NCBI RefSeq assembly: GCF_028769735.1
Contig: NC_088186.1
Span: 9,393,001-9,457,000, forward strand
Length of the DNA stretch: 64,000 nt
Reading direction: 5' to 3'
Source: Zonotrichia leucophrys gambelii
Taxonomy: Eukaryota; Chordata; Aves; Passeriformes; Passerellidae
The notes beneath the pieces are model-generated. The model was not told where the DNA came from. It did not search any database and saw only the letters and a program-made list of their open reading frames with translations. Within the stretch, counting starts at the first letter, position 1, and each line of letters opens with the position of its first letter. Positions 52,501 through 55,500 of the stretch are shown one piece after another. The translations under genes and the position numbers were made by a program.

Positions 52501-55500
52501 AGACTGCAAAACAGCAAGGAAGGATAAGGATTCCCCAGGAGAAAGCAAGCAAGGGGAAAACAAGCTGAATCACATCCTCCAGCCAGCCCTTAAGGGACTG
52601 TAGTAGTGAATAATCACCTGAGTTTTCTTTATTAAGCATGGTTCAGTGAATCCTTCTGACAGAAGCTCTGGGCACCCATGAGAGCTCTGGGCAAACCATG
52701 CCTTGCTTCAGGTACCTTGCTGGTACCAGCCTAACTTCAGACAGGCTTGAAACTCTCTCTGGCAGGGAAAGATATGGGGTGGGAAGAGTAGGCTGGAAAT
52801 GGAAGAGCCCCACAGGAAACTGGTGGTGGACTTGGCCCTCGTTTATACTCACCAGCTTTTGGTGAGAACATGATGGCTTTATTCAGAGCAGGGATGAAGC
52901 AAAGGAACAAAGGTAACAGGGCACCTTTTTACCATGCTAGTGGTGGGGAAAAAAAAGCTTTAATCAAGGAAGCCTGACACCTTCCTGCTGGGAAGCCCAG
53001 GCTGAGCACGGCCCCTCAGACTCAAACACGCCACATTCTCTGAGCAGCTGCTGGTACCTCACACCCCCCACCCCAGGAGAGAAACAAGCCCTCCATTGCA
53101 ATCCTGGGCTGTGTGTAAAGACCAAAGGCATCTCAGAGGCTCTCCTGAGGCTGGCAGGCAGCAGCAGGGGGGCAGGGAGGGTGGGCACTGCACTTACACC
53201 ACACACCCACAGCGGTTCAGGGAGCAGGAAGGGTGAGTAGGGCACTTACACCACACATTTGTAGCAGTTCAGGGGACAGGGAGGGGTGGGCACTGCACTT
53301 ACACCACACACTCACAGTGGTTCAGGGAGCAGGAAGGGTGAGCAGGGCACTTACACCACACACTCATAGGGGCTCAGGGGACAGGGAGGAGTGAGCAGGG
53401 CACTTACACCACACATTTGTAGGGGTTCAGGAGGCACTGCACTTACACCACACACTCACAGGGGCTCAGGGGACAGGGAGGGGTGGGCACTGCACTTACA
53501 CCACACACTCATAGTGGTTCAGGGAGCAGGAAGGGTGAGCAGGGCACTTACACCACACACTCACAGGGGCTCAGGAGGCAGGGAGGGGTGAGCACTGCAC
53601 TTACACCACACATTTGTAGGGGTTCAGAGGGCACTGCACTTACACCACACACTCATAGGGGTTAAGGAGGCAGGAAGGGTGAGCAGGGCACTTACACCAC
53701 ACATCACAGGGGCTCAGGGGACAGGAGGAGTGAGCAGGGTACTTACACCACACATTTGTAGGGGCTCAGAGGCACTGCACTTACACCACACACTCATAGG
53801 GGTTAAGGAGGCAGGGAAGGCTGAGCACTGCACTTACACCACACTCATAGGGCTCAGGGGACAGGCAGGAATGAGCAGGGCACTTACACCACACATTTGT
53901 AGGGGTTCAGAGGGCACTGCACTTAAACCACACACTCACAGGGGCTCAGAGGCAGGGAGAGGTGAGCAGGGCACTTACACCACACACCCATAGCGGTTCA
54001 GGGGACAAGGAGGGGTGAGCACTGCACTTACACCACACGCTCATAGTGGTTCAGGGGGCAGGGAAGGGTGAGCAGGCACTTACACCACACATTTGTAGGG
54101 GCTCAGGGGCACTGCACTTACACCACACACTCACAGGGGCTCAGGGGACAGGGAAGGGTGAACAGGGCACTTACACCACACACTCATAGTGTTCAGGGGC
54201 AGGGAAGAGTGAGCACTGCACTTACACCACACATTTGTAGGGGTTCAGAGGGCACTGCACTTACACCACACACTCATAGGGGTTAAGGAGGCAGGGAGGG
54301 GTGAGCACTGCACTTACACCACACACTCACAGGGGCTCAGGAAGCAGGGAGGGGTGAGCACTGCACTTACACCACACATTTGTAGGGGTTCAGGGGGCAC
54401 TGCACTTACACCACACACTCACAGGGGTTCAGGGGACAGGGAAGGGTGAGTAGGGCACTTACACCACACTCACAGGGGCTCAGGGAGCAGGAGGGGTGAG
54501 CACTGCACTTACACCACACACTCACAGTGGTTCAGGGGGCAGGGAAGGGTGAACAGGGCACTTACACCACACACTCACAGGGGCTCAGGGAGCAGGAGGG
54601 GTGAGCACTGCACTTACACCACACACTCACAGGGGTTAAGGAGGCAGGGAGGGGTGAGCACTGCACTTACACCACACACTCACAGGGGCTCAGGGGGCAG
54701 GGAGGGGTGAGCACTGCACTTACACCACACACTCACAGGGGCTCAGGGGGCAGGAAGGGTGAGCACTGCACTTACACCACACACTCGTAGCGGTTCTCTC
54801 GCGCCGCGATGTGCAGGGGCGAGTCCCCGTGGATGTTCACGGCGTGCAGGTCACACTTTGCTGCCAGCAGGATCTCAGCTATGTCAACACAGCCAGAAAA
54901 AGCAGCCCAGTGCAAACAAATGTTTTCCTCCTGGAGGGGAAGAGAACAGAGAGGAGGCTGTTTAAAACCCCGTGGATTTGGGGGTTCCTTCCTCAGCTCT
55001 GCACCTGCAGTGTTCAGCGTGTGGCTGCCACCCCAACCCTGCTCTGGCTGAATGGGGATGCCAGGGTGGACAGGGAAACCTCAGAGCAGCCAAACAGGGA
55101 GCTCTCACTCCATCCACCTCTGCACACCAAGGATGGGGAGGCTGCACACAAGGCAATCCATCACCTTCCCTACACACACACAGACAGCTCGTCAGTCTCC
55201 AAGCCACAAACCAATCTAGATCAATCCAGGAAAAAGTGACAGACATGAACAAACATGCTGGAAAAGGCTGAATGCTGAGTTTGCCCAGCCCCAACAGCCA
55301 GCAAAGCTACTGTGCCTCCCAGGGCTGCAAAATTAAGGAGAAAAAGGGCACAGCACGAAATTAAGGAGAAAAAGAGCACACGGGGTACGTGAAGGTGCCA
55401 AAAAGAGAACCAGGAGCCATGGGGTAAGCAATCAATCTGACTCCAGGCATCTCTTAAATACTGTATGTACTCATCTCTCACTAGCAGCACTGGAAATAGC

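Follow-up and report, generated by a model that had tools for sequence, protein, structure and literature searches.

How is one 5′ splice site chosen when its intron opens with 32 further copies of it, nearly all of them intact? This question is raised by EHMT1 of Zonotrichia leucophrys gambelii, within a window of 64,000 nucleotides (C18:9393001-9457000) that was analysed as a whole, together with a search of the 1.12 Gb genome from which it comes. We consider it very probable that the copies form a tolerated, neutrally grown mirage, as minisatellite-like duplications of exon–intron boundaries have been called in amphioxus, and that the first donor wins by exon definition. The donor minisatellite at EHMT1 is real, but its kind is already known from the amphioxus mirages and from human ABCA7, and it brings no new mechanism.

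The EHMT1 donor array

The minus-strand gene had been named as EHMT1 in the original prediction, and rightly so: the 13 exons in the window join to a product of 541 residues which is 100% identical to an entry from Junco hyemalis, the next four entries listed, all from birds, being 97–99% identical. The features around the fifth exon, E5, are as follows, with a slash marking the exon–intron border.

54776..54930, minus strand: EHMT1 exon E5 (of 13), encoding ankyrin repeats and ending in ...ENRYECV plus GT, phase 2 (limits and phase computed)
54770..54775, minus strand: true 5′ splice site GTAAGT, context GGT/GTAAGTGC, giving an in-frame join to the next exon
53183..54775, minus strand: array 1, a minisatellite of exon-junction units with 32 decoy donors (from TAAGT sites; TRF span 53168-54786)
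53920..53930, minus strand: the single decoy without GT, GGTTTAAGTGC, reading TTTAAGT, junction position 53927
52504..54775, minus strand: host intron of array 1, 2272 nt by the exon limits, about 70% of it array
52336..52503, minus strand: next exon, E6, 168 nt, starting ag/T CTC TTT at 52503

The protein sequence of E5 differs from that of human EHMT1 by one residue, and the introns flanking the exon measure 2930 and 2272 nt. The start of E6 at 52503 (ag/T CTC TTT) fixes the E5 donor as GT/GTAAGT (GT/GTAAGTGC); a valine codon is split GT/T across the junction, which reads V V L F.

Array 1 is 1.6 kb long and abuts E5 without a gap, and its first GT is the canonical E5 donor, as in the ABCA7 type of donor VNTR. 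The donor of exon 54776-54930 with an array behind it, about 33 copies, and one copy deprived of its GT near 53921 had all been noted beforehand, and each was recovered here: the TRF span lies where the array had been placed, 33 TAAGT sites were counted with the true donor included, at spacings of 38–53 nt, and one of them, reading TTTAAGT, has no GT. No double gap occurs between the sites, and there is thus no sign of a missed unit. Short units of 38–39 nt are scattered among the others, and the units fall into types whose interspersion fits, as expected, repeated duplication of blocks. GTAAGT is intact in 31 of the 32 decoys, the units thus carrying splice signals as those of mirages do, and the array 1 slice holds 45 GT[AG]AGT hexamers (true donor included), whereas 500 shuffles averaged 5.3 and never exceeded 12. 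A further 13 GTGAGT hexamers lie within the exon-derived part of units, and form a second donor-like site in the units concerned. G-quadruplex motifs, six or seven depending on the limits taken, are present on the plus (template) strand of array 1, with a shuffle mean of 2.8 (n=200), and possibly aided its growth; a scan for such motifs in a second EHMT1 array, described below as array 2, gave none.

Each unit contains about 21 nt of exon, and the units span the junction, with exonic and intronic parts as in a mirage, which argues that array 1 grew from the junction. The last 22 nt of E5 are on average 0.79 identical to the 32 decoy units (range 0.70–0.86), and their best ungapped match is 19/22 in array 1 compared with 16/22 or less in the 22.2 kb of other EHMT1 intron, which upholds the growth from the exon junction that had been proposed for this locus. 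The glutamate of the E5 tail (YEC) also occurs in the bird EHMT1 models listed and in those of a turtle and a monitor lizard, and therefore the array was copied from the exon and not the reverse. Nothing points to a transposable or otherwise dispersed repeat as the origin: a 22-base unit core has 15 exact matches in the 1.12 Gb genome, and every one of them falls within array 1.

Consequences of decoy use

Reading past the true donor had been said to give a premature stop at once, and translation agrees: whichever of decoys 1–32 is used, the same first stop follows, directly after RYECVV. Retention of one unit breaks the reading frame of EHMT1, with the stop directly after the junction; one retained unit of the ABCA7 VNTR likewise leads to a premature stop, there by frameshift. 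The predicted decoy product ends inside the ankyrin domain and ahead of further exon junctions. Stops so placed are as a general rule subject to nonsense-mediated decay, which would therefore be expected for transcripts spliced at a decoy.

Units scoring far below the true donor would have spoken against an array of rival sites, and they do not score so: the true donor and 30 of the 32 decoys all pair with U1 at −7.5 kcal/mol, the other two decoys having −7.8 kcal/mol and, for the GT-less one, −5.1 kcal/mol. Donor strength was accordingly rejected as the reason for the choice of the first donor. RNA structure hiding the decoys was also rejected, the true donor being the 10th, 6th and 12th most open of the 33 by opening energy in three contexts. 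Since strength and folding are equal or uninformative, neither explains donor choice, while position can. Fourteen of the 120 listed homologues are bird-named entries, and 11 of these, predicted models, read ECVV-LFLSR across the junction, the listed bird EHMT1 models having no insert there; the other three (P0074, P0079 and P0088; 67–68% identical) are without the search string and are probably EHMT2.

The effect of position is described for designed donor pairs. When two identical CAG/guaagu sites were placed in minigenes with flanking introns of 365 nt, an exon-definition setting, all five constructs are reported to have used the upstream site exclusively (PMC9225289). For natural pairs matched in strength, the same source describes a preference for the upstream site where the exon has long introns on both sides and for the downstream one where these introns are short; without such matching, the pooled natural pairs showed a preference for the downstream site in about 60%, and larger minigene exons that were given two weak identical sites were for the most part skipped (PMC9225289). 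How the first donor wins had been raised as a puzzle of EHMT1 in particular, and this is not supported: the mirages and the ABCA7 VNTR have the same arrangement, minigenes with identical donors use the upstream one, and further arrays exist in the genome.

A second donor array in EHMT1

EHMT1 carries another minisatellite at the donor of a later exon.

46550..46636, minus strand: EHMT1 exon E10, donor CGA/GTGAGTGC, phase 2 (from exon limits and protein comparison)
45607..46549, minus strand: array 2, a minisatellite starting at the E10 donor, 18 units of about 54 nt (from TRF, 45607-46551, and unit alignment)

The units of array 2 share only about 2 exonic nt, and GT[AG]AGT is kept in 5 of its 17 later units as against 31 of the 32 decoys of array 1 (Fisher 8e-7). 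The mean column divergence is alike in the two, 0.103 in array 2 and 0.091 in array 1, and therefore the intact donors of array 1 are not due to youth alone. Four other minisatellites lie in the window (5253-5859, 6002-6595, 32657-33148 and 34393-35218), and by eye their consensus units contain no donor motif.

Comparable arrays in other genes and organisms

Among the open-licence literature matches listed, there was no published report of a donor minisatellite in birds or in EHMT1. The nearest relatives in kind are the mirages of amphioxus, described in Adh3 and globin genes, where splicing is reported not to be disturbed (PMC3087553), and also in troponin C and PGBD5, splicing again being reported as undisturbed (PMC3902484). 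They share with array 1 a minisatellite-like duplication of the exon–intron boundary with splice signals in the units, many mirage units being described with AG/GT signals, and in the globin BflGb6 the mirage has 3 and 6 units in two haplotypes (PMC3087553, PMC3902484). They differ in belonging to cephalochordate genes and in being backed by RT-PCR, the EHMT1 array being described here from its sequence.

The VNTR in intron 18 of human ABCA7 is built of 25-bp units, about 12 to 427 in number, of which the first GT is the exon-18 donor (PMC5954066). Like array 1 it is a minisatellite that opens with the donor GT and carries it in tens of further copies along the intron; it differs in its unit of 25 bp, described as starting at the GT, and in lying in another gene, with no homology claimed (PMC5954066). 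Retention of one unit is reported at 2±1% with no change with VNTR length, while exon 19 skipping rises with length, and length and expression are inversely related (PMC5954066). Splicing and length effects have thus been measured for ABCA7, whereas those considered here for EHMT1 are predictions from sequence. The ABCA7 case shows that, in man, a donor array is able to influence both the balance of isoforms and the risk of disease.

The minisatellite of IFI6, which goes back, it is said, to Turri in 1995, reportedly has a short unit. This human gene (6-16/G1P3) uses two downstream repeat units as donors, giving three mRNAs (PMC4526556). Minisatellite units supply several splice donors there as in array 1; the difference is that repeat donors of IFI6 yield mRNAs (PMC4526556), whereas use of an EHMT1 decoy would truncate the protein.

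Why the array is probably tolerated

The anatomy of array 1, its equal donors, its exon-derived units, the stop that follows decoy use and the further cases in the same genome are all observed, and it is on these that the reading as a tolerated mirage builds. We infer that the array began with a tandem duplication across the exon–intron junction, of about 21 exonic and 31 intronic nt, and that slippage of the repeat or unequal exchange, both of the ordinary kind and within the intron, then raised it neutrally to a minisatellite of 33 copies. Its tolerance would stem from the long introns on either side of E5 (2930 and 2272 nt), with the exon being recognised as a whole, across its length: in Zonotrichia leucophrys gambelii, the donor closest to the 3′ splice site upstream would be the one whose U1 is paired first, the equal strength of the decoys notwithstanding. 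Leakage would be low and expected mostly at the first copies, where the immediate TAA that is added would lead to nonsense-mediated decay. Counted against this reading are the donor block, which is the best kept part of the unit; the downstream preference of the pooled natural pairs and the skipping of larger minigene exons with weak donors (PMC9225289), given that the E5 donor is the fifth weakest of the 12 in EHMT1 by U1 pairing; the loss of donors in array 2, by which youth alone does not account for the intact donors of array 1; and ABCA7, where one unit is reported to be retained at times and the next exon to be skipped strongly (PMC5954066).

That last point leads to the alternative in which array length sets EHMT1 output, through skipping of E6 or through decoy use and nonsense-mediated decay, by analogy with the ABCA7 VNTR. 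There, more exon 19 skipping and lower expression are described for the longer VNTR (PMC5954066), and E6, being 168 nt long, would keep the frame on skipping (ECVVDIARG... in translation); against this, one-unit retention in ABCA7 is reported to be unchanged with VNTR size (PMC5954066), and we think it unlikely that array 1 acts in such a way.

The decoys might also be kept by selection, for instance to supply the intron with many U1 sites that would suppress early polyadenylation, or to serve as a U1 sink, which we regard as quite improbable. No part of the unit has changed less than the donor block, with two substitutions in 15 columns × 33 copies, and the conserved block around it (16 columns, 30% of the unit) is both the longest and the largest in share among six arrays compared, namely array 1, array 2 and the four other minisatellites of the window; array 2, moreover, is of similar overall divergence without most of its donors. 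However, the conserved blocks of the other five arrays (20, 26, 9, 26 and 21% of the unit) arise where there is no such reason, and 30% is therefore not far out; about 8 of the 53 circular placements of the 9-nt site would sit wholly inside the block; and singletons are not clearly depleted there, 3 of 13 falling in these 16 of 53 columns with 3.9 expected. Elsewhere in EHMT1, GTAAGT was counted in 21.3 kb of intron outside the arrays, with none in sense (2.4 expected) and two in antisense (1.5 expected), counts which are too few to judge avoidance.

An assembly artefact, with the copy number or the place of array 1 wrong, has a precedent of sorts in one amphioxus mirage that was apparently aberrantly assembled in the genome draft (PMC3087553). 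It is nevertheless very improbable here, as the copies of array 1 differ from one another, their flanks are coherent, the unit core maps nowhere else and similar arrays exist at other genes of the same genome. Scarcely credible, finally, is a bank of microexons, in which a unit with a pyrimidine tract, an AG, 6–18 nt and a donor would be spliced in as a small in-frame exon: 11 units do contain 12 candidate AGs whose microexon would be in frame and free of stops and which are preceded by 22 nt with 15 or more pyrimidines (translated by hand, the 18-nt type would insert PCECVV), but one of these 11 is the GT-less unit, microexons so short are seldom used without enhancers, and the listed bird EHMT1 models have no insert at the E5/E6 junction.

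Donor arrays elsewhere in the genome

The genome was screened with two spaced patterns, a GTAAGT triple and an AGGTRAGT triple, and loci were taken from the matches listed: 34 distinct loci for the former, of which 28 were examined, and nine for the latter, all examined. Of these 37 loci, 28 have a TRF array, and six of the 28 arrays begin no more than about 60 nt from the donor of an exon that has a protein match, exon calls being made by inspection and biased towards known domains. Phases in the list below were deduced from frame and donor; for EHMT1 and L052 alone was the following exon seen as well.

L039: synaptophysin family (PDB match, no Pfam match); phase 2; about 42 exonic nt with 2 mismatches
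L040: EGF_CA (Pfam match); phase 2; 15 exonic nt per unit
L052, G000:C4:112826000-112830000: DNMT3 PWWP exon (protein match); phase 0; few exonic nt at most
L063: ACOT (PDB match, no Pfam match); phase 1; few exonic nt at most
L072, G000:C2:71974000-71975600: NRF1 (protein match); phase 0; 7 exonic nt
L078: ASXL HARE-HTH (protein match); phase 0; about 11 exonic nt with one mismatch

Like array 1, these six adjoin the donor of a coding exon; they differ from it in TRF period (21–120 bp), in exonic content (almost none to about 42 nt) and in phase (0–2). The first four clear cases, EHMT1 E5, E10, L039 and L040, are all phase 2, and a rule by which arrays occur only where a decoy gives an immediate stop was considered; the later cases, in phases 0, 1, 0 and 0, removed it.

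The GTAAGT triple has 353 matches in the genome against 2190 for its reversed control, and thus no excess, whereas the AGGTRAGT triple has 390 against 143; as a further control, a shuffled octamer matched 23 times, in 6 places, and its own reverse 96 times. All these figures count places rather than arrays, and a few large arrays dominate them. By a rough estimate from usual donor numbers, one AGGTRAGT octamer in three may be a true donor, and arrays at donors may therefore be no more than random seeding plus tolerance. A wider reading, drawn by analogy with ABCA7 and naming EHMT1, DNMT3, ASXL and NRF1, would make songbird 5′ splice sites a recurrent birthplace of minisatellites, whose length-variable donor arrays would tune skipping of the next exon and gene dose; we consider it unlikely. 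What should remain of interest are the arrays of this one genome, taken together as a panel, and the parallel to ABCA7. In every donor array the spliceosome is put to the test, by nature, of choosing from a long row of identical donors, where the minigenes described in PMC9225289 tested only two. EHMT1 alone has one array that is near-intact (31/32 donors) and one that has decayed (5/17), and arrays differing in phase, unit length and exonic content offer a panel for RNA-seq and long-read genotyping.

The other loci are less clear. At L044, L058, L073, L075 and L079 the array is accompanied by an open frame, with an acceptor-like site ahead in four of the five, and there is no Pfam match; the remaining 17 arrays look non-exonic by eye, and peptides of two of them (L041 and L064) had no match in Pfam. 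L048 was discarded as an array, being an exon donor with two chance GTAAGT nearby.

Three of the loci have features of their own. The NRF1 array (L072) has 21-nt units, with no stop in the part translated, and decoy use there would thus add in-frame repeats of seven residues. The intron after the DNMT3 PWWP exon (L052), about 0.8 kb as determined by hand, is nearly all array, and the next exon, VCVEKL, follows directly after it. In three units of about 41 nt at L058 (G000:C7:57923800-57927800), a tract rich in pyrimidines and A runs straight into CAG and then GTAAGT, an arrangement resembling that of recursive splice sites.
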